NCBI GenBank assembly: GCA_002304445.1
Contig: NEVA01000002.1
Span: forward strand, 124,001-188,000
Origin: Opitutia bacterium Tous-C4FEB
GTDB taxonomy: Bacteria; Verrucomicrobiota; Verrucomicrobiia; Opitutales; Opitutaceae
Reading direction: 5' to 3'
Length of the DNA: 64,000 nucleotides
In this document: positions 21,450 to 30,173 of the stretch, in pieces
How positions within the stretch are numbered: position 1 is the stretch's first letter
Layout of the letters: every line of letters begins with the position of its first letter
The notes under the pieces: model-generated
What the model saw: only the letters and a program-made list of their open reading frames with translations
What the model was told of the DNA's origin: nothing
The model's database searches: none
Position numbers and translations under genes: made by a program

Positions 21450-21953
21450 CCTTTGCGGTCCCACTGAAGCCGACCGCGGGCAAAAGAAGTAGATTCGAAA
21501 TGGAACGAGAATCTAGACGGATGCCGAGTCGCTGCGGAAAAATTACTGTTCGGAAAAATGGGCACCCAACGCGCCTGAGTTTCGATGGAAAACTTAGCAG
21601 ACGATTCCACCAAAATATCTCGTGAAAGCGCGTACCCCTCGAAAAGTCGGATGGAACAAAAGTCGATTTCGTATCGCTTCGGCTCGATTTTTTTAAGTCA
21701 GATCGAAAGTTGGTTGACACGAAACTTTTCATGCGGCCACTTACGCTTTCTTTGTGTTATTTCCCAGCTGCACCCCGTAACCGCCGCCGATAAACCACTG
21801 CACTTGTTCCGAGCCTTTTTATCGGCATGATTCCTGCGAAACGGGCCAATTTGTGTTCCTAAATCTAAAATTGAAATTCCGACCCGCTTGTTGATTCAAA
21901 AAACTGAACTGTCTCAAACGTAAAAAGTTTTTCACCACCATCCACACACTCAT
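21450..21953. other. AT-richer intergenic region before the exbB operon
   Basis: About 500 bases with no gene I can support. Just after polX there is a weak hairpin, gcggtc...gaccgc (about 21456-21478), without a T-run. A TTGACA hexamer lies at 21714-21719 but lacks a convincing -10 at 16-18 bases. The last 100 bases are A/T-rich, as expected for a promoter region of the following operon. Confidence 0.4.
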
Positions 21954-22616
21954 ATGATTACCAGCCTACCGCTCGCGTTCCTCCTCAACATGACCACAAT
22001 GGAGCTCTTCAAACATGGAGGCCCAATCATGTGGCCCATTTTGTTGATCTCCTTGCTTGGTATCACCGTGATCGTCGAGCGCCTGCTCTTCATCATTAAG
22101 GAAAATGGACGGCGTGAACCCGAGGTTGTGGAAAAGATGCTTGAATGCGTAGAAAAAGGTGATGTCGCCGGCGCTTTGGCGCTGGGCAAAAAGAGCAATG
22201 ATTCTGTGGCCCGGATTCTTGTCTACAGCTTAAATAACAAACAGTACTCACTCGGAAACGCATTCGTCCGCGCTTCTGGTCAAGAGCTCTCTCGTTATTC
22301 GCAGGGCATGGCTACGCTCGACACCGTAATCACTTCAGCACCCCTTTTGGGACTTCTTGGAACAGTCACTGGCATGATGAAAACCTTCGGAAGCATGTCG
22401 GGCGATATCAGCGCGGCAGCAGGTGCGATCACTGGCGGTGTTGCTGAAGCTCTCATCGCGACCGCAGCCGGTTTGGCCATTGCGATCGCAGGTTTGCTTC
22501 CCTACAACTACATGAACGCCCGCACCGAGCAGGCGAAACAAGAAATTTCCGACGCTTCCCATGCGCTGGAGATCTTCCTGAAGAAGTCAGACACGCACGC
22601 AGCGACGAACCGTTGA
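21954..22616 (+). CDS. exbB: ExbB/TolQ-family proton channel subunit
   Basis: Inner-membrane stator that uses the proton gradient to drive TonB- or TolA-type partners. Three membrane segments are visible: about residues 24-45 (MWPILLISLLGITVIVERLLF), 117-140 (TVITSAPLLGLLGTVTGMM) and 158-185 (AEALIATAAGLAIAIAGLLPYNY). The conserved LLGLLGTVTGM and EALIATAAGLAIAI motifs are diagnostic. First of seven tandem genes ending at the terminator at 26817. No Shine-Dalgarno motif precedes the ATG at 21954; an internal ATG 12 codons later is an alternative. Confidence 0.93.
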   Translation: MITSLPLAFLLNMTTMELFKHGGPIMWPILLISLLGITVIVERLLFIIKENGRREPEVVEKMLECVEKGDVAGALALGKKSNDSVARILVYSLNNKQYSLGNAFVRASGQELSRYSQGMATLDTVITSAPLLGLLGTVTGMMKTFGSMSGDISAAAGAITGGVAEALIATAAGLAIAIAGLLPYNYMNARTEQAKQEISDASHALEIFLKKSDTHAATNR

Positions 22617-22671
22617 TATAGACGGTTAATCAACAGAAAAGAGATAGCCGAATTTAAAAACACATCTCAAT

Positions 22672-23106
22672 ATGGCTGGAACAAGCTCTGCCTCGCACGG
22701 TGATGGCCCAAAGAAGGCGCGTATTGAGATTATTCCTCTGATCGACGTTGTTTTCTTTTTGTTGGCTACGTTCGTTTTGTTCACCCTTTCGTTGAATAAG
22801 TCACAAGGTTTGAACGTAACTTTGCCGCAGTCTGAGACCGGCGAGGTTCGCGATCCAAGCGGCACGGCGACGATCACCGTAACGTCGGAGGGCACGATTG
22901 CTTGGGATAAGGACCCGGTTACATTGGACGAGTTTCTCACCCGTCTGAAATCCTTTAAGAACACACACGCGGACGAGGCGAAGATTTTGATCAACGGAGA
23001 TGAGAATGCTCCGTTTAACCAAGCGATCTACGTTTTCGACGAGGTCCGTAAGTCGGGAATTCAAAAGGTGTTGATTGAAACACGGGTTAAACCGCCTTCC
23101 ACATAA
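22672..23106 (+). CDS. exbD: ExbD/TolR-family protein, first paralogue
   Basis: Single-pass partner of ExbB. The membrane helix starts with the proton-carrying Asp in IPLIDVVFFLLATFV at about residues 22-36. The periplasmic domain (about 45-144) is TolR-like, ending in DEVRKSGIQKVLIETR. Its membrane block from KKARIE to SLNK is residue-for-residue the same as in the next gene, while the periplasmic part differs. A 15-residue Ser/Gly-rich N-terminal extension precedes the basic KKARIE. It lies 55 bases after exbB. Confidence 0.93.
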   Translation: MAGTSSASHGDGPKKARIEIIPLIDVVFFLLATFVLFTLSLNKSQGLNVTLPQSETGEVRDPSGTATITVTSEGTIAWDKDPVTLDEFLTRLKSFKNTHADEAKILINGDENAPFNQAIYVFDEVRKSGIQKVLIETRVKPPST

Positions 23107-23162
23107 ACTAAGCGTATAGTCCGGAAAATTGGGCGACCAAAACTTTAGCGACTCACCATAGT

Positions 23163-23561
23163 ATGAAAAAAGCTCGTATTGAAATCATTCCATTGATCGA
23201 CGTCGTTTTCTTCCTTTTGGCGACCTTTGTTTTGTTCACACTCTCGTTGAACAAGATCCAAGCCGTTCCTTTGAATCTTCCGGTGGCCAATCCAAATCCA
23301 ACCTCGAAGCCGGATGAAGATAGCGTGACGCTACAAGTCTCTGATCAAGGCACGTGCTACTGGAACAAAGAGCTGATCACTATTCAGGAAATTCGTCCCC
23401 GTTTGAATCAATATAAAACCCAAGTACCCACTCCACGGGTTCTCATCGCCGGTGACGACAAAGCGCGCTTCGGGACCGCCGTTCTAGCACTGGATGAAGT
23501 ACGAAAAGCTGGAATTGAACAAGTCTCCGTCGAAACCGTCGTGCGCGGCACGGGAAAGTAA
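23163..23561 (+). CDS. exbD: ExbD/TolR-family protein, second paralogue
   Basis: Second single-pass ExbD of the operon (132 residues). It begins directly with MKKARIEIIPLID and has the same membrane helix as its upstream neighbour. The periplasmic part diverges, with PLNLPVANPNPTSKPDEDSV and a C-terminal LDEVRKAGIEQVSVETV. The two probably form a heterodimer inside one ExbB pentamer, or alternate stators. No Shine-Dalgarno motif. tonB follows after 18 bases. Confidence 0.93.
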   Translation: MKKARIEIIPLIDVVFFLLATFVLFTLSLNKIQAVPLNLPVANPNPTSKPDEDSVTLQVSDQGTCYWNKELITIQEIRPRLNQYKTQVPTPRVLIAGDDKARFGTAVLALDEVRKAGIEQVSVETVVRGTGK

Positions 23562-23579
23562 ATTCAACCTCCTCGAAAA

Positions 23580-24236
23580 ATGCGCCGCGACCTCATAATT
23601 GGTATATTGGTTTCCTTCGCTCTTCACGGAGGGTTGGCTTGGATCGGTGAGTATAAACCCGCCTCTGATGTCAAGAAGGTGGTTGATGATGCTCCAACCA
23701 TCCAGTTGATGGAAATGCCGAAAGTAGAACCAGACGAACCCGAGCCGGTTGAGACCAACGAAGCGCCACCAAAACCAGCTGATTTTGCGCCGCCGATGCA
23801 GACGGATGTTCCGCAGATCATTACAGATACCTCTTTCGTTCAGAAACTACAACCCCCTCCTCCAGAGGGACTCACTATCAACCGTGGCGCCATTACGATT
23901 CCGCAAGGACAAGTAGGCGGTTTGGGTAAAGGTATTGAGGTGTTCGATATATCGAAACTCGATCAGCAGCCGGTTGCTCGTTTTCAAGCACGTCCCCAAT
24001 ATCCATTCGAAATGCGTCGCGCTGGGATTGCGGGTGAGGTTTTGGTCGATTTCATCGTAGATTCCAATGGTGACGTTCGAAATGCTTATGCGGTGCGCTC
24101 CTCGCAACGGGAATTCGAGGCTGCTGCCGTACAAGCGGTTTCAAAATGGAAGTTCAGGCCTGGCAAGAAAGGTGGTCGGAATGTAAACACGCACATGCAG
24201 GTCCCGATTGTTTTCACGCTCAACGAAGAATCCTGA
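23580..24236 (+). CDS. tonB: TonB-family energy transducer
   Basis: Couples the ExbB/ExbD proton motor to outer-membrane receptors. One N-terminal membrane helix (residues about 5-22, LIIGILVSFALHGGLAWI with the conserved-type His). A Pro/Glu-rich spacer (about 40-90: PKVEPDEPEPVETNEAPPKP) follows, then the C-terminal TonB domain (about 130-218) with PQYPFEMRRAGIAGEVLVDF, FEAAAVQAVSKWKFRPG and QVPIVFTL. Length of 218 residues is normal. No TonB-dependent receptor gene lies in the window. Confidence 0.93.
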   Translation: MRRDLIIGILVSFALHGGLAWIGEYKPASDVKKVVDDAPTIQLMEMPKVEPDEPEPVETNEAPPKPADFAPPMQTDVPQIITDTSFVQKLQPPPPEGLTINRGAITIPQGQVGGLGKGIEVFDISKLDQQPVARFQARPQYPFEMRRAGIAGEVLVDFIVDSNGDVRNAYAVRSSQREFEAAAVQAVSKWKFRPGKKGGRNVNTHMQVPIVFTLNEES

Positions 24237-24251
24237 TAGGAGAATTATACA

Positions 24252-25664
24252 GTGATTTTTAATCTTACCCAATTACGCCTTCGCCCCAGAGCACTCTTCC
24301 TTTTCGTTGCGTTGCTAACTTCGGTCACGATTCTCCCTAACCGGTCCGGCGCGGCCGAGGAACAAGGGCCCCCTGGGTTGAATGAAAAGGTGAGCGAAGC
24401 TCTGCAGCAAAAGATGAAACCTTTGCTGGATGCTAAGAATTGGGATGGAGCCATGGCAGTAATCGATAGTGTGTTGGTTGGTCTTGATCCCAATGGTTAC
24501 GATACCGCCTTCCTATCTGATATTAAGGCCAAGATATTCCTCCAGAAAAACGATTACGCCTCGGCGATTGGACCCATGGAAACTACTCTTCGCTTGGCCG
24601 ATGCGAACAAGAATTTCTTCGATAAAAAAACTATTTTAGATGTGGTCTATTTTCTGGCCCAGATTTACTACCAAGAGGGAACTTCGAGTAAGGATCCGAC
24701 AGTTCAAAAGAACTATTTCAACAAGTCTTCGGCATATATAAAGCGTTGGCTCCAAACGACCCCTAAGAAGAATCAAGAAGCCTCACTTTTCTACGCTTCG
24801 ATTCTGTACAATCAGGCCGTCGTTAATCCAGACAAGGTAGATCTCGAATTGATCAAGCGAGTTCAAACCGAAGTTCAGGAGGGACTGTTGACCTCGTTGA
24901 AGCCAAAAGAGGGGTTTTATGTCCTCCTGTTGGCCTCGCTTCAACAGATCGGCGATCTCGCAGGTTCCGCCGAGGTTTTGGAACAAATGGTGAAGGTTAA
25001 ACCCGACAACAGGACTTATTGGTTACAGTTGCTCGCCACCTACCTCAATTTGGGTGGTGGGACCGAGAAAGATGAGCAGAAGAGCCGAGAGAGCTTTGCT
25101 CGTGCGATTAACACGATGGAAAGGGCTCAGGCCTTGGGGCTAATGCAGACCCCCAAGGATAACTACAATCTAGTTACAATGTATTACAATGCGGGTCAGT
25201 TCGGGAGAGCCACCGATCTGCTTTATTCTGGGCTTAAATCGGGAGCGATTGAGTCGGATCTGAAAAATTGGCAACTTCTGGCCTATTCCTATCAACAAAT
25301 CGGGCGCGATGCCCAGGCTATTGCGGTGTTGAAAGAAGCGGGCACAGCCTTTCCGAGCGGCCAAATAGAGTTTCAGATCGGGCAGATTTATTCCCAGATG
25401 GATAATAGGACAGCTGAAGCGTATGCATACTATTCGAAGGCCGTAGAAAAAGGTGGGCTAGAAAAGCCGCACTCCGCCTACATGTTCCTCGCCTACACCG
25501 CTTTTGAACTTGAAAAATTTGACGAGGCTCTAGCTGCAATCAACAAGACCATTGGGTCTCCCGATGGGCAAAAAGATGCTCAAGCTCCTCGTCTCAAACA
25601 AGCGATCGAGGATGCCGTCAAAGAGCGCGAAGCGATGAAACAGACAGCCGAAATCAAGAAATAA
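24252..25664 (+). CDS. Exported TPR-repeat protein of the exb-tonB operon
   Basis: 470-residue protein with an N-terminal export signal (LRPRALFLFVALLTSV, likely cleavage near GAAEE), so periplasmic. Helical repeats fill the rest; recognisable TPR-like units include AKNWDGAMAVIDSVLVGLDP, NDYASAIGPMETTLRLA, AYSYQQIGRDAQAIAVLKEA and AYTAFELEKFDEALAAINK. The GTG start at 24252 is one of few here with an upstream aggaga. Its position after tonB suggests a scaffold for the motor complex, loosely comparable to CpoB/YbgF beside Tol genes; that is inference from context. Confidence 0.85.
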   Translation: MIFNLTQLRLRPRALFLFVALLTSVTILPNRSGAAEEQGPPGLNEKVSEALQQKMKPLLDAKNWDGAMAVIDSVLVGLDPNGYDTAFLSDIKAKIFLQKNDYASAIGPMETTLRLADANKNFFDKKTILDVVYFLAQIYYQEGTSSKDPTVQKNYFNKSSAYIKRWLQTTPKKNQEASLFYASILYNQAVVNPDKVDLELIKRVQTEVQEGLLTSLKPKEGFYVLLLASLQQIGDLAGSAEVLEQMVKVKPDNRTYWLQLLATYLNLGGGTEKDEQKSRESFARAINTMERAQALGLMQTPKDNYNLVTMYYNAGQFGRATDLLYSGLKSGAIESDLKNWQLLAYSYQQIGRDAQAIAVLKEAGTAFPSGQIEFQIGQIYSQMDNRTAEAYAYYSKAVEKGGLEKPHSAYMFLAYTAFELEKFDEALAAINKTIGSPDGQKDAQAPRLKQAIEDAVKEREAMKQTAEIKK

Positions 25665-25681
25665 CCTAAATCTATTTTCCC

Positions 25682-26236
25682 ATGAAAAAAGCCCAAGCCT
25701 ATTTTCTCGTTCCACTTATTGGCATGATCGTGTTTGGTGCCATCTATTGGAATTTTAACGCCGGTGATGAACAGCGCCAAGCTGCAAAAGCTGCTGAATT
25801 CAAGAAGATGCGTAACGACAAGTTGCTTGAAGATGCTCGTTTGAGAGAAAAGGCGGTAAAGGATGCTATATCTTCACAGGAAAAACGGAGAGCAGAAAAA
25901 GAGGTTAAAGACGCCCGTGATCGGAAAGACAAAGAAGAGCGTGAGAATGCAAACCAAGCTAGAACCAAAGCTTTCCGCGACTCCGAGAAGCTACAAAAGC
26001 AGGTTGAACGTTTAACTAAAGAGGTGGCTACCACCAAAGAGGAGATTTCGAAGATTGAAGATGATAAAAAGCGGTTAGTCGATGAGGTTACTTTTATCAA
26101 AGGCTTTGTTAAAAAAGTAGAGGGTAACGCGAAAGGTCTAACTGACGTTATCGAGCGAATTAATGCAGCGGATGCCGCTGCCGAGGCAGCGGCGAGAGTG
26201 GCAGCAGCGGCGGCCGCTGCAGCAGCGAAGAAGTAA
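25682..26236 (+). CDS. Membrane-anchored coiled-coil protein 1 (TolA-like layout)
   Basis: 184 residues: a short basic start, one membrane helix (residues about 6-26, YFLVPLIGMIVFGAIYWNF), then a charged Lys/Glu/Ala-rich helix to the end with heptad-like spacing (KLQKQVERLTKEVATTKEEI, SKIEDDKKRLVDEV). It ends in an Ala-rich tract. This layout resembles domains I and II of TolA without the globular domain III. No family name can be assigned. It lies 17 bases after the TPR gene and is followed by a similar gene. Confidence 0.75.
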   Translation: MKKAQAYFLVPLIGMIVFGAIYWNFNAGDEQRQAAKAAEFKKMRNDKLLEDARLREKAVKDAISSQEKRRAEKEVKDARDRKDKEERENANQARTKAFRDSEKLQKQVERLTKEVATTKEEISKIEDDKKRLVDEVTFIKGFVKKVEGNAKGLTDVIERINAADAAAEAAARVAAAAAAAAAKK

Positions 26237-26256
26237 TTTAAAATTTCTACAATATC

Positions 26257-26793
26257 ATGAAAAAGTGGATGTATGTAATCTTCCCGGGGATCATGTTGGC
26301 GGTCTTCTTGGTTATTTATTCTTCAGCGATGAAGGATGTTGAACTGGCGACGCAAAAAAAAGCGGAAGAAGTTGCCAAGATGAAGGCGGCGGACGAAGCG
26401 AAAAAGAAGGTGGCCGAGGAGAAGGCTCGCGAAGATTCCGCGCGCCGCTCAGCTGAGCGCGCAGCTGAAGACGCAAAACGTGAGGCGGATCGGATCGCCA
26501 AGTGGCAAAATGAGAGCAAGAAAATTCAGGACGACACCGACAAGGCGCAAGCTGATGCTGATCGTTACAACAAGGAGGTTGCCGCTCTCGAGTTAACGCT
26601 TGATTCCCTAAAAAAATCGAAGGACAAAGCGAGCAGGGAAGCCTTTGATTTGGTCAAACAAGTGGAGCGCGCAAAGGTCGACCGACGCAATGCAGAGATA
26701 GAGATCCAGCGATTGACGGAGATGGTATCTCGGCGAGCAGCGGAAAGCTCGCTTACGCGTCCGCCAGCTATACCGACCGCGCCTAAATCCTAA
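26257..26793 (+). CDS. Membrane-anchored coiled-coil protein 2 (TolA-like layout)
   Basis: 178 residues with the same plan as its upstream neighbour: MKKWMY start, one membrane helix (about 5-24, VIFPGIMLAVFLVIYSSA), a long Ala/Lys/Glu helix (VAKMKAADEAKKKVAEEKAR, ERAAEDAKREADRIAKW), and a second coiled-coil stretch (ALELTLDSLKKSKDKASREA). The end is Pro-rich (RPPAIPTAPKS). Last gene before the terminator at 26817. The two may pair with each other; similarity beyond composition is weak. Function is not known. Confidence 0.75.
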   Translation: MKKWMYVIFPGIMLAVFLVIYSSAMKDVELATQKKAEEVAKMKAADEAKKKVAEEKAREDSARRSAERAAEDAKREADRIAKWQNESKKIQDDTDKAQADADRYNKEVAALELTLDSLKKSKDKASREAFDLVKQVERAKVDRRNAEIEIQRLTEMVSRRAAESSLTRPPAIPTAPKS

Positions 26794-26816
26794 GGTAAAT
26801 TTAAGATATTTTTTTC

Positions 26817-26858
26817 AAAAATCGCCGTCTCCGGAAACTGAGACGGCGATTTTTTTGT
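26817..26858 (+). terminator. Rho-independent terminator of the exb-tonB operon
   Basis: Perfect 11-bp stem atcgccgtctc (26821-26831) and gagacggcgat (26840-26850) with loop cggaaact, flanked by A's on the left and seven T's on the right. It closes the seven-gene operon 28 bases after the last stop codon. Confidence 0.93.
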
Positions 26859-26949: not shown

Positions 26950-28659
26950 ATGGCCACCATTTCCGTAAAGTCGAAGAAGCAAAATACTTTTGATGCGATT
27001 GTTATTGGATCGGGTATTAGCGGCGGTTGGGCGGCGAAGGAACTTGCCGAGAAAGGTTTGAAGACACTCGTTCTCGAGCGTGGTCGAGATGTTAAGCATG
27101 GGGATTACCCTACTGCATTAACAGATAGTTGGGAATTTGAAGGTCGGAACCGGATACTTCCTGAGGCGGTTAACCGACAGGCAAAACAACATCGAACCGG
27201 CTATACCACAAGTCCAGCGTCGGCCCATTGGTTCGCTGATGATATCGATAGTCCGTATTCGGAAGATAAACGCTTCGACTGGATGCGCGGTTATCACGTC
27301 GGGGGACGATCGCTCACTTGGGGGCGCCAATCCTATCGTTTTAGCGAGCAGGATTTTGAAGCTAATGCAAAAGAGGGCATCGCGATCGATTGGCCAATTC
27401 GTTATGGGGATTTGGCGCCTTGGTATGACTATGTTGAACGATTTTCAGGTATTAGTGGCACTATAGACGGTCTCCCTCAGTTGCCCGATGGGCAGTTTTT
27501 GCCACCAATGGAGATGAACTGCCTTGAACGAGACGTGAAGCGACGCGTTGCGGTCTCGTTTGGTGGGCGGCCAATAATAATCGGTCGGGTCGCCAATCTC
27601 ACCCAATCTCACAATGGACGGGCCACTTGCCAGTATCGGAATCGCTGTATCCGCGGCTGTCCGTATGGGGCCTATTTCAGTAGTAACGCCGCGACTTTGC
27701 CCGCTGGTTACGCTTCGGGTAACCTAACGCTCAGACCTTTCTCGATTGTAAATTCAATTAGCTACGATGAGGAAAAAAAACGTGCAATTGGGGTCAAGGT
27801 CATCGACGCGGAGACGAGTGAGGTCATCGAGTATTATGCAAAGGTCATTTTCTCGTGTGCCTCTGCGGTTGCTTCGACGTTCATTTTAATGAACTCGGTA
27901 TCTGATCGTTTTCCGCGCGGACTGGGCAATGATAGCGGCGAGCTGGGGCACAACTTGATGGACCATCATTTCAAAGTTGGAGCTGCTGGTATTTCCGAAG
28001 AATTCGGCGACATGTATTTCCGCGGGCAGCGGCCAAACGGCATTTATATCCCCCGATTCCGCAATATTGATCGGCAATCAATGCGAAAGGACTATGTGCG
28101 GGGCTTTGGCTATCAGGGAAGCGCGAGTCGCACGGACTGGGCGCGTGGAATCAAGGAATTGACCGCTTTCGGCTCAAAGTTTAAGGCCGACATGATCGCT
28201 CCTGGACCGTGGCGTTTCGGCATCGGGGCGTGGGGTGAGTGCTTGCCCTATCATGAAAACCGGCTATTTCTCAACCCGAAGTTGCGCGATAAATGGGGTC
28301 AACCGACGGTCACGTTTGATTGTGAGTGGAAGGCCAACGAATATGCGATGCGCAAAGACATGAAGGTGTCGGCGGTGGAAATGTTAGAGGCTGCCGGATT
28401 AAAGGATGTAACGCCTTTTGATGACGTCAGTGCTCCTGGTATGTGTATTCACGAGATGGGAACCGCGCGGATGGGGCGTGATCCAAAAACTTCGGTCCTC
28501 AACCAGTGGAACCAAGTACACGCCGTGCCCAATGTTTTTGTGACGGACGGGGCGTGTATGACCTCAAACTCGTGCGTGAATCCCTCGCTTACTTATATGG
28601 CACTGACTGCTCGGGCGTGTGATCACGCGGTGAGTGAGCTCAAAAAGCAAAACCTCTAA
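26950..28659 (+). CDS. GMC-family FAD oxidoreductase (sugar dehydrogenase large subunit)
   Basis: 569-residue GMC flavoprotein. An FAD-binding GSGISGGWAAKEL segment near the N terminus, an early LVLERGRD, the GYHVGGRSLTWGRQSYRF loop, and the C-terminal MCIHEMGTARMG and SNSCVNPSLTYMALTARACD bearing the His/Asn active-site pair. A Cys-rich insert CQYRNRCIRGCPYGA is also typical of gluconate 2-dehydrogenase or glucoside 3-dehydrogenase large subunits. It has no signal peptide; the next gene carries a Tat signal and would export it as a complex. Likely oxidises a sugar hydroxyl; C3 oxidation is inferred from the DUF1080 gene downstream. Confidence 0.88.
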   Translation: MATISVKSKKQNTFDAIVIGSGISGGWAAKELAEKGLKTLVLERGRDVKHGDYPTALTDSWEFEGRNRILPEAVNRQAKQHRTGYTTSPASAHWFADDIDSPYSEDKRFDWMRGYHVGGRSLTWGRQSYRFSEQDFEANAKEGIAIDWPIRYGDLAPWYDYVERFSGISGTIDGLPQLPDGQFLPPMEMNCLERDVKRRVAVSFGGRPIIIGRVANLTQSHNGRATCQYRNRCIRGCPYGAYFSSNAATLPAGYASGNLTLRPFSIVNSISYDEEKKRAIGVKVIDAETSEVIEYYAKVIFSCASAVASTFILMNSVSDRFPRGLGNDSGELGHNLMDHHFKVGAAGISEEFGDMYFRGQRPNGIYIPRFRNIDRQSMRKDYVRGFGYQGSASRTDWARGIKELTAFGSKFKADMIAPGPWRFGIGAWGECLPYHENRLFLNPKLRDKWGQPTVTFDCEWKANEYAMRKDMKVSAVEMLEAAGLKDVTPFDDVSAPGMCIHEMGTARMGRDPKTSVLNQWNQVHAVPNVFVTDGACMTSNSCVNPSLTYMALTARACDHAVSELKKQNL

Positions 28660-28677
28660 TTTGAGAAGGTTTTCCCG

Positions 28678-29289
28678 ATGATTTTTTCAAATCCTAGCCT
28701 TTGCTCCGAAGATGACGATGGGGCGCTCAAGATTTCGCGACGGGAAGCTCTCCGGCGCGCAGCGCTGATGCTTGGAGTCGCCCTGACGCCCTCACTACTC
28801 TCGACCGCACTTCAGGCGCAAAGCGGGGCAACTGCTAAGGTCCTAGGCCTCCAGTATCTAAATGAAAATCAGCGGCTAACGGTTGCCATTATCGCGGAGC
28901 GAATTCTGCCTAAGTCTGACACCCCCGGTGCGGTCGATGCGGGGGTTCCTGAGTTCATTGATATCATTTATGGCAAGTATCTTAATGAGGACGACAAGAT
29001 CATGTTTTCCGCCGGGTTGGACGGGGTTGCAGAACGGGCGCTGAAACTCTACGGGAAAAGCATTTCTCAGCTTTCGTCAGAGGAGCAGGACCTCTTACTT
29101 CGGGATATCGCCCGCGCATCCCAATCCTTGCCCAAATCTTTTTTTCTTCAAATCAAAGAGCTCACGGTCGTCGGATATTTTACCTCCGAGCTCGTGGGCA
29201 AAACGGTCCTCAAGTATGATCCAATTCCAGGGCGTTACGATCCCTGCATTCCTTTGTCCGAGGTAGGTAATGCACAGTGGACTAGGTAA
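28678..29289 (+). CDS. Gluconate 2-dehydrogenase subunit 3-like protein with Tat signal
   Basis: 203-residue small subunit that accompanies GMC dehydrogenases. A twin-arginine signal is visible at about residues 20-50: SRREALRRAALMLG, then a hydrophobic stretch ending in LQAQS. The mature part has NENQRLTVAIIAERILPKSDTPGAVDAGV, the common opening of this family. It starts 18 bases after the GMC gene. No cytochrome c third subunit follows, so the electron acceptor is unclear. Confidence 0.85.
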   Translation: MIFSNPSLCSEDDDGALKISRREALRRAALMLGVALTPSLLSTALQAQSGATAKVLGLQYLNENQRLTVAIIAERILPKSDTPGAVDAGVPEFIDIIYGKYLNEDDKIMFSAGLDGVAERALKLYGKSISQLSSEEQDLLLRDIARASQSLPKSFFLQIKELTVVGYFTSELVGKTVLKYDPIPGRYDPCIPLSEVGNAQWTR

Positions 29290-29366
29290 GATCTTTTTTA
29301 AGCGATGATTCGACCCAGCTGAGTTGCCACTTAGCGCGCCGTTCACTGATTCCCTCGTATTATATT

Positions 29367-30173
29367 ATGAAAACCCCTGCACTTGCTCTGCTTCTTATCG
29401 CCGCCTCATCCGTACTTTTCTCGGCCGAGGAAAACAAACCTTTCCCTTTGGGCTATACAGATACGCCGATTATTCCCGGCACGAAGTGGAAGGTTCATGA
29501 TATAGATCGTCCAGCGCCTCCCGTTGTCGTCCCTGGGGCCAAACCCGGCGATGCACCTGCGGACGCGACCATTTTGTTCAATGGCAAAGATACCTCTCAG
29601 TTTTACAGCAAGAAGAAGGACACGCCCGGCAAATTCCCGAGTCCTTGGGTGATCGAGAATGGCGAGTTGATCGTCAATGGCGGTGATTGTTGGACCCACT
29701 TGGAGTTTGCGAGCTGCCAGCTCCATGTTGAATGGCGTAGTGACGCGAAGATTCAGAAGGGCAACTCGCAGAAGAAGGGTAACGGAGGGGTGTTTTTCAT
29801 GGACCGCTACGAGAGCCAGATGCTCGATACCGACAATAATCCCACTTACTCCGACGGTATGCCGGGCGGAATCTACGGGCAGACGCCGCCGCTCGTGAAC
29901 GCCGTTCGCAAGGCCGGCGAGTGGCAGGTATATGATATCATTTTCACGGCTCCCAAGCTGGAGAAAGGCAAGGTGGTCGAAGCGGCTCGGATCACAACGT
30001 TCCTCAACGGCGTGCTGGTCCAAAACAATACTGCGATCATGGGGCCCACCTTGCACAAGAAGACCACCGACTATAGCGGTATATTTCCGGAAAAGGCGCC
30101 GTTTCGATTTCAGGATCATAAAAACGAACCGCCGATTCGGATGCGGAACATCTGGGTGCGCCCCTTGCCCTGA
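29367..30173 (+). CDS. Secreted DUF1080 (3-keto-disaccharide hydrolase-like) protein
   Basis: 268 residues with a signal peptide (residues about 1-20, ending near LFSAEE). The DUF1080 lectin-like fold is recognisable by ATILFNGKDTSQF, WVIENGELIVNGG, QLHVEWRSDAK, NGGVFFMDRYESQMLD and the C-terminal PPIRMRNIWVRPLP. Characterised members hydrolyse or hydrate 3-keto-glycosides. Co-location with a GMC dehydrogenase and its small subunit suggests stepwise periplasmic breakdown of glycosides through 3-keto intermediates. Confidence 0.85.
   Translation: MKTPALALLLIAASSVLFSAEENKPFPLGYTDTPIIPGTKWKVHDIDRPAPPVVVPGAKPGDAPADATILFNGKDTSQFYSKKKDTPGKFPSPWVIENGELIVNGGDCWTHLEFASCQLHVEWRSDAKIQKGNSQKKGNGGVFFMDRYESQMLDTDNNPTYSDGMPGGIYGQTPPLVNAVRKAGEWQVYDIIFTAPKLEKGKVVEAARITTFLNGVLVQNNTAIMGPTLHKKTTDYSGIFPEKAPFRFQDHKNEPPIRMRNIWVRPLP

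Follow-up and report, generated by a model that had tools for sequence, protein, structure and literature searches.

The closest described relatives of the locus analysed here are the TonB2 and TonB3 systems of Vibrio, in which genes for ExbB, ExbD and TonB and then for a tetratricopeptide repeat (TPR) protein share an operon with genes for accessory proteins (PMC6957404, in excerpt). According to the same excerpt, Vibrio TonB2 needs both TtpB, a DUF3450 protein with a leucine-zipper motif, and TtpC, a second, long ExbB. Here we describe a seven-gene operon of Opitutia bacterium Tous-C4FEB (Opitutaceae), located on contig NEVA01000002.1 (contig C12 of genome G000). The window is the whole stretch analysed, the 64,000 nucleotides at positions 124001-188000 of this contig, and all coordinates below are window positions. 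Unlike the Vibrio systems, the Opitutaceae operon has neither TtpB nor TtpC; it encodes two ExbDs and, in its last two genes at the 3' end, two membrane-anchored, single-pass helical proteins, which we name CC1 and CC2 and refer to as rods. We read the seven genes as a TonB energy-transduction operon of Opitutaceae equipped with passive rods of matched length, and we give this reading a probability of about one half.

The Escherichia coli TonB-ExbB-ExbD system shares with this operon the motor and a transducer that has a Ser-His motif and a TonB C-terminal domain. It has one ExbD, no TPR protein and no rods. The Tol-Pal system is driven by a motor of the same superfamily but differs in that TolA unites the Ser-His motif, a helix and a C-terminal domain in one protein, whereas the rods consist of the helix only. 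According to excerpts of PMC12204202, TolA and TonB bind the motor through their SHLS motif, and TolA domain II is helical in many Proteobacteria. The excerpts also report that in the PVC group TPR genes stand beside a TolQ-like gene and paired, different TolR-like genes, together with vWA proteins. In those operons the extra protein is a vWA transducer, whereas the Opitutaceae operon has TonB and two rods without a transducer motif. The requirement of Vibrio TonB2 for TtpB and TtpC, as excerpted, corrects a premise of a previous, sequence-only reading of the window, namely that TonB systems normally lack coiled coils. Excerpts of the open-licence literature on TonB-ExbBD-TPR systems of Opitutaceae and Verrucomicrobia contain no description of these rods, and excerpts of PMC13274419 and PMC12505986 do not treat them.

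Composition of the operon

The seven open reading frames (ORFs) lie on the + strand at 21954-26793, with intergenic gaps of 55, 56, 18, 15, 17 and 20 bases from exbB to CC2. Their positions agree with the sequence-only reading, and Pfam and NCBIfam place genes 1-5 as it had assigned them. The first gene, exbB (21954-22616), encodes an ExbB/TolQ-type proton-channel subunit of 220 aa (Pfam MotA_ExbB, 6e-26); it is the single ExbB gene of the operon, which encodes no second long ExbB-like protein of the TtpC type. The two ExbDs, encoded at 22672-23106 (144 aa; Pfam ExbD, 2e-27) and 23163-23561 (132 aa; Pfam ExbD, 8e-25), carry the channel aspartates D25 and D13, which are kept in 66 of 66 and in 99% of 68 sequences, respectively. 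TonB (23580-24236; 218 aa; Pfam TonB_C, 8e-21) consists of an N-terminal membrane helix, a Pro-rich linker and the TonB C-terminal domain. Among 69 relatives, Ser12 is kept in 88% and His16 in 91%, and 61 contain Ser-x3-His within the first 30 residues. It is thus an ordinary TonB, and the proposal that the locus encodes a hybrid Tol-Ton machine is mostly unsupported; TolB, Pal and CpoB have no match in the seven proteins (Pfam, NCBIfam) or in three flanking genes (Pfam).

The fifth gene (24252-25664) encodes a TPR protein of 470 aa with a GTG start, which matches Pfam TPR families and carries a predicted Sec signal, by which it would be exported. It resembles TtpD, the last gene product of Vibrio TonB2-type operons, in position and by weak full-length similarity. 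When it is aligned with the TPR protein of a Vibrio-like operon from the same order (locus L035, see below), 94 of 438 columns are identical (21%; E 2e-19), a value to be read in the light of the ease with which TPR repeats match. DUF3450, the TtpB domain, is not found over the cut-off in the seven proteins or, at E 1e-15, anywhere in the genome. A genome-wide search with PF03544 returned the TonB of the operon and a second, TolA-like protein encoded on contig C39. Since only these two PF03544 proteins stand beside at least 18 Plug matches, that is, TonB-dependent receptors (18 of 85 candidates were scored), the operon probably energises the receptors of this genome. Contig C39 carries a separate ExbB-ExbD-TolA-like locus (L037:5766-7922); none of the three genes scanned downstream of it encodes TolB or Pal, and two genes with an OmpA domain are located on other stretches.

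The rods form two paralogous families

CC1 (25682-26236, + strand; 184 aa) and CC2 (26257-26793, + strand; 178 aa) are single-pass inner-membrane proteins with a periplasmic helical rod. AlphaFold2 predicts one unbroken helix for each, spanning residues 3-182 in CC1 (mean pLDDT 90.5) and 5-163 in CC2 (mean pLDDT 90.0), without a globular end; the first 25 residues are the membrane helix. A profile comparison identifies the two proteins as paralogues (hhalign, 99.1% over 142 columns). The sequence-only reading could name no family for them, and rightly so: the window proteins match nothing over the Pfam or NCBIfam cut-offs, nor do 14 CC1 and 13 CC2 family members in Pfam. CC1 and CC2 are two protein families without a name in either database. 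Searches of the rods also returned no TolA/TonB C-terminal domain (Pfam, window proteins and family members), no peptidoglycan-binding domain (Pfam) and no vWA C-terminal domain (Pfam, NCBIfam). DUF3450 remained below the cut-off, the best values being 0.0012 in one of the 14 CC1 members and 0.066 for the CC2 of the window, and none of the 13 CC2 members matched it at 0.01. Weak Pfam matches to TssO (8e-5, two of 14 CC1 members), DUF2205 (3e-5, one of 14) and ATG16 (1e-4, one of 13 CC2 members) were judged compositional and set aside, as were the weak, helix-like matches (keratin, rootletin, RevCC) that were all that searches of solved structures returned.

The membrane helices share a pattern, K3-Y7-P11-F18-Y22 in CC1 and K3-Y6-P10-F17-Y21 in CC2, with a conservation of 83-100%. 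Its last four positions (Tyr-Pro-Phe-Tyr) have matching spacing in both rods and span 60 degrees of helix, i.e. they lie on one face. In the family alignments, no His or Asp is conserved in the membrane helices, and the Ser-x3-His motor motif is found in one of 77 CC1 and none of 77 CC2 sequences. The earlier reading of the rods as the TolA-like part of a hybrid is not supported, since they have no TolA/TonB C-terminal domain, practically no motor motif and no conserved membrane Asp.

The proteins had also been called coiled coils, which is partly borne out. When the periodicity of VILMFYW residues was compared with 500 shuffles, the distal half of CC1 (96-165) gave a clear heptad-period signal (period 3.48, reached by 0/500 shuffles). 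The membrane-near halves peaked at 3.80 in CC1 (2/500) and at 3.40 in CC2 (17/500), but the signal of the distal CC2 half does not exceed chance (157/500) and the AlphaFold2 models are single helices. In the membrane-near halves, i,i+4 opposite-charge pairs stand at 15.8 versus 9.2 after shuffling in CC1 and at 18.3 versus 9.5 in CC2, and by this pattern these halves look more like charged single helices.

Conserved residues are also found far from the membrane. CC2 carries a distal tip motif, R144-x-A-E-I/L-E-I-Q-R-x3-M156 (26686-26724, + strand), which is conserved in TPR-anchored rows, i.e. in loci found through the TPR search alone. In 39 such rows, E137 is present in 39, A146, E147 and R152 in 38 each, Q151 in 36 and E149 in 34; in 42 TPR-anchored CC1 rows, E135 and N149 are kept in 38 each and F138 in 36. 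The counts were taken from these loci because the conservation in 77 motif-fetched CC2 sequences, with five invariant tip positions, arises partly by construction. Compared with locus L146, the rods of which are 95% (CC1) and 91% (CC2) identical to those of the window, dN/dS is 0.032 for CC1 and 0.070 for CC2, versus 0 to 0.036 for the other five genes. Both rods are under strong purifying selection.

Rod length is nearly invariant

The distance from the membrane-helix Phe to a conserved distal residue is locked in both families. In CC1 the segment F18-N149 (25733-26128, + strand) measures 131 residues, or about 19.7 nm as a helix with a rise of 1.5 A per residue, and in CC2 the segment F17-Q151 (26305-26709, + strand) measures 134 residues, or about 20.1 nm. 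Among 118 distinct sequences (the duplicate window row was left out, and rows with E >1e-15 or a model start >8 were dropped), the CC1 value is 131 in 114, two have 132 and two are without an anchor; the CC2 value is 134 in 115, two have 135 and one has 138. Restricting the count to TPR-anchored loci gives 134 in 39 of 39 CC2 rows and 131 in 40 of 42 CC1 rows, the other two being pieces of the split CC1 gene of L050. The CC1 reading of that locus (genome G174) is divided over two overlapping frames, apparently through a frameshift in the sequence or the assembly. The lengths are also kept in the family-f21 member L013 and in the diverged genome G185 (L130); the rods of L034, which are the same genes as in L013, are only 20% (CC1) and 22% (CC2) identical to those of the window.

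To express length change relative to divergence, parsimony counts were made on FastTree trees of the 61 loci with all seven proteins, with the number of substitutions estimated as the product of tree length and segment length. The rods changed length once in 2,795 (CC1) and once in 2,793 (CC2) substitutions, versus 23 changes in 2,146 for the TonB linker, 20 in 6,558 for the TPR protein, 9 in 1,260 for ExbB (60 rows), 7 in 892 for ExbD1 and 20 in 1,325 for ExbD2. Length changes per substitution are therefore 8 to 40 times rarer in the rods than in these comparators, all of which are segments of the same operon. At the same time, the rods have the lowest sequence conservation, with mean identities of 0.41 and 0.42 versus 0.45-0.71 for the compared segments. 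Evolution thus seems to have fixed rod length nearly to the single residue, even though more than half of the positions are different in an average pair of members. The only rod change in the 61 loci is an addition of one residue to both CC1 and CC2, in L212 and L224, which are about 58% identical to each other.

Conservation and distribution of the operon

Of 132 Opitutales genomes searched for the TPR protein, 13 matched, 10 of them from Opitutaceae. Thirteen TPR loci other than that of the window were mapped, and 12 of them contain the same seven genes. The remaining one, L035 (genome G028), carries a different operon, with the order DUF3450, 470-aa ExbB, ExbB, ExbD, ExbD, TonB, TPR, which is the gene order of the Vibrio TonB2 system plus one more ExbD. 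The genes that flank the operon in the window are unmatched in all 13 loci (10-14 kb each), so that the seven genes behave as a unit. With the window's locus and 27 more, 41 TPR-anchored loci are available; they are the best-scoring matches and hence biased to closer relatives. CC1 and CC2 lie directly 3' of the TPR gene, on the same strand, in 40 of the 41; the lone exception, L014 (G028), is a Vibrio-TonB2-like operon. The seven genes form one conserved unit, with their order kept in many relatives.

Of 250 family genomes, 181 have the TPR protein and 187 have CC2. Both occur in 179, the TPR protein alone in two (G357 and G362, with loci cut by contig ends), CC2 alone in eight and neither in 61. 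Copy numbers track each other as well, with more than one CC2 match in 14 of 16 genomes that have more than one TPR match versus five of 165 with a single one. The sequence-only reading had named absence of the rods beside exbBD-tonB in close relatives as evidence that would speak against it; in the TPR loci mapped, the rods are present wherever this ExbBD-TonB-TPR operon is, but the operon itself has a patchy distribution. A scan for the CC2 tip pattern in one genome per species (84,980 species) yielded 111 CC2 relatives, of which 80 loci were kept. All seven genes are in order with clean calls in 58 of these and present with split or cut calls in seven, and in the other 15 the contig end is reached before the missing genes. 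The loci are labelled Opitutaceae, Opitutia or Verrucomicrobia (e.g. Opitutus, Cephaloticoccus, Lacunisphaera, Didemnitutus), apart from two Acidobacteria bins, L154 and L214, whose contigs carry rod genes. The label of L214 looks wrong because this locus is 98.9% identical over 3.1 kb to L212 from Opitutia bacterium fen_1438.

In a phylum sample, the CC2 profile matched 35 of 387 genomes, namely 33 of 37 family genomes, G020 from a neighbouring family and G672. The last match (E 3e-6) was rejected: it falls in a 571-aa ORF, and the other six profiles are unmatched in the surrounding 7.9 kb. DUF3450 was found in 80 of the 387 genomes at E 1e-15, and operons of the TtpBC type are common there. 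Sixteen chosen DUF3450 loci were mapped; a long ExbB (463-718 aa as called) is present in all 16, TPR in 14, TonB in 12 and CC1 or CC2 in none. Two family genomes in which no CC2 was found, G171 (L254-L257) and G140 (L258-L259), have four DUF3450 matches each, and these six loci look TtpC-type.

The operon also varies in copy number and rod number. Genome G134 carries at least three copies on one chromosome (L138, L139 and L140 were mapped) and has four TPR matches, and L033:7568-8678 (G091) encodes three rods, with a tandem duplicate of CC1 ahead of CC2. The possibility that TonB-dependent receptors are missing where the operon is missing was rejected, since Plug is present in 250 of 250 family genomes. 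TonB was matched in 15 of 16 family genomes searched (12 with neither TPR nor CC2 and four with one of them), G137 being the unmatched one. Within the genus of the window's genome, TPR and CC2 matches are missing from G184, G231, G265, G307, G319 and G337; around the TonB gene of G231, the 16 kb that were mapped contain no match to ExbB or ExbD.

A proposed TonB system with matched rods and its alternatives

Under the preferred reading, ExbB and the two different ExbDs would form the proton-driven motor, TonB would be the energised transducer that drives outer-membrane receptors, and the TtpD-like TPR protein would be exported to the periplasm. The rods are placed as accessory parts because the Ttp case shows that a TonB system may depend on such proteins. 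CC1 and CC2 would be paralogous, inner-membrane-anchored rods of fixed, matched length, reaching about 19-20 nm from the membrane to the conserved tip and so possibly spanning the periplasm. They would be passive, with membrane helices that may dock via the Tyr-Pro-Phe-Tyr face onto the motor or each other, and their tips may keep the TPR protein or TonB close to the outer membrane, at a constant distance. More tentatively, and we regard this step as somewhat less likely to be right than wrong, the rods could be a built-in periplasmic ruler tied to the ExbB motor, which would define how far the TonB machine stands from the outer membrane. This possibility bears on the way in which TonB stays in touch with the outer membrane and on whether cells need a fixed periplasm for it. 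In E. coli the distance between the membranes matters for envelope signalling (PMC5736177, in excerpt). If the rods are rulers, they would be a new kind of TonB accessory part, made of two new protein families. With this operon, an Opitutaceae subtype of TonB system joins the Vibrio TtpBCD type. TonB genes serve carbohydrate use in the system treated in an excerpt of PMC10734418, a possible role for the Opitutaceae operon as well.

Several observations weigh against the preferred reading. The structure models are of single chains, so that contacts of the rods with partners are conjectural, and given the weak heptad signal of CC2 the two rods may not form a coiled coil together. Rod length could reflect the geometry of a bundle instead of a distance, and a rod may not be needed for reach because the TonB linker could itself span the periplasm. 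The length comparison used net lengths, in which compensating insertions and deletions would be invisible, and the short TonB C-terminal domain shows no length change in 458 substitutions. The coordinated addition of one residue to both rods is one evolutionary event at most, as it is confined to one related pair of loci, and in L203, outside the 61 loci, the CC2 span is 138 residues while that of CC1 is unchanged at 131, i.e. the two are unmatched. Correlations between distance matrices, after removal of the ExbB/ExbD signal, are modest (0.42 for CC1-CC2, 0.41 for TPR-CC1 and 0.27-0.38 for the other four pairs). Finally, neither marker was found in 61 of the 250 family genomes, and in the genus to which the window belongs both are missing from six of 13 genomes (68-93% complete). 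With such a patchy distribution, in the family and in the genus, the operon is not essential to TonB transport in Opitutaceae.

The strongest competitor, although we consider it improbable at roughly one chance in five, is that the rods stand in for TtpB and TtpC as factors for assembly or stability, their fixed length following from an ordered bundle around TonB or ExbB. An accessory role of this kind has a precedent in V. vulnificus, where TonB2-driven uptake requires each of TtpB2, TtpC2 and TtpD2 (PMC6957404, in excerpt), and operons of the order TtpB-TtpC-ExbB-ExbD-TonB-TPR are present in the same phylum and family. Among 37 family genomes, all four without CC2 have three to four DUF3450 matches, whereas only six of the 33 with CC2 have one; the probability of such a split, C(10,4)/C(37,4), is 0.003, but three of the four genomes belong to one genus. 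Because of this, and because G289 of that genus has a diverged CC-type operon, replacement is only a suggestion. Moreover, the six CC2-bearing genomes with DUF3450 also carry a TtpC-type locus, so that TtpC-type and rod operons are not exclusive, and the rods show no relation to DUF3450 over the cut-off. A general envelope spacer, similar to Lpp and merely co-transcribed with TonB genes, is less probable still. Fixed length and the lack of any enzymatic domain would suit such a role, and Lpp length sets the membrane distance in E. coli (PMC5736177, in excerpt); however, no peptidoglycan-binding domain was found on the rods, which are absent from many family genomes, and TonB-operon genes lie upstream in 69 of the 80 CC2-found loci, the contig end coming first in the other 11.

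Two further explanations seem to us very unlikely, and about equally so. If CC1 and CC2 were TolA-like force transducers energised by the same motor, as in the hybrid proposed from the sequence, their Ala/Lys/Glu-rich helix after one N-terminal membrane helix would correspond to domain II of Proteobacterial TolA, and the conserved face of the membrane helix would also suit this reading. The near absence of Ser-x3-His, the membrane helix without a conserved Asp, the lack of a match to a TolA/TonB or vWA C-terminal domain and the lack of a Tol-Pal partner among the seven proteins all argue otherwise. The operon might instead be an ordinary TonB operon in which the helices are low-complexity tethers of constant length without functional meaning. 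Charged helical stalks are common and genes 1-5 are ordinary, and the comparators of the length result are all segments of the operon itself. Against such tethers stand the rarity of length changes (about 8-40 times below the comparators) despite the lowest sequence identity, the conserved tip residues and the dN/dS values of 0.03-0.07.

Transcription signals and flanking genes

Upstream of exbB, the block GGTTGACAC (21712-21720, + strand) includes TTGACA at 21714-21719, a perfect -35 hexamer. The exact 9-mer occurs in 12 of 64 upstream regions, that of the window included, and may act as a promoter element; no clear -10 was seen near the TTGACA block when the 64 regions were compared. Downstream of CC2, a Rho-independent terminator (26817-26854, + strand) with a 15-pair stem, an 8-base loop and a T run matches the strong terminator noticed earlier; the scan as a whole is at chance level (11 sites versus 10.5 expected), and every other listed site has at most seven pairs. 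According to the Pfam scan, the operon is preceded by a PolX-type polymerase gene and followed by genes for a GMC oxidoreductase and a gluconate 2-dehydrogenase subunit 3. These two and a third ORF (29367-30173), which we take to be DUF1080-like, occupy positions 26950-30173 of the window.

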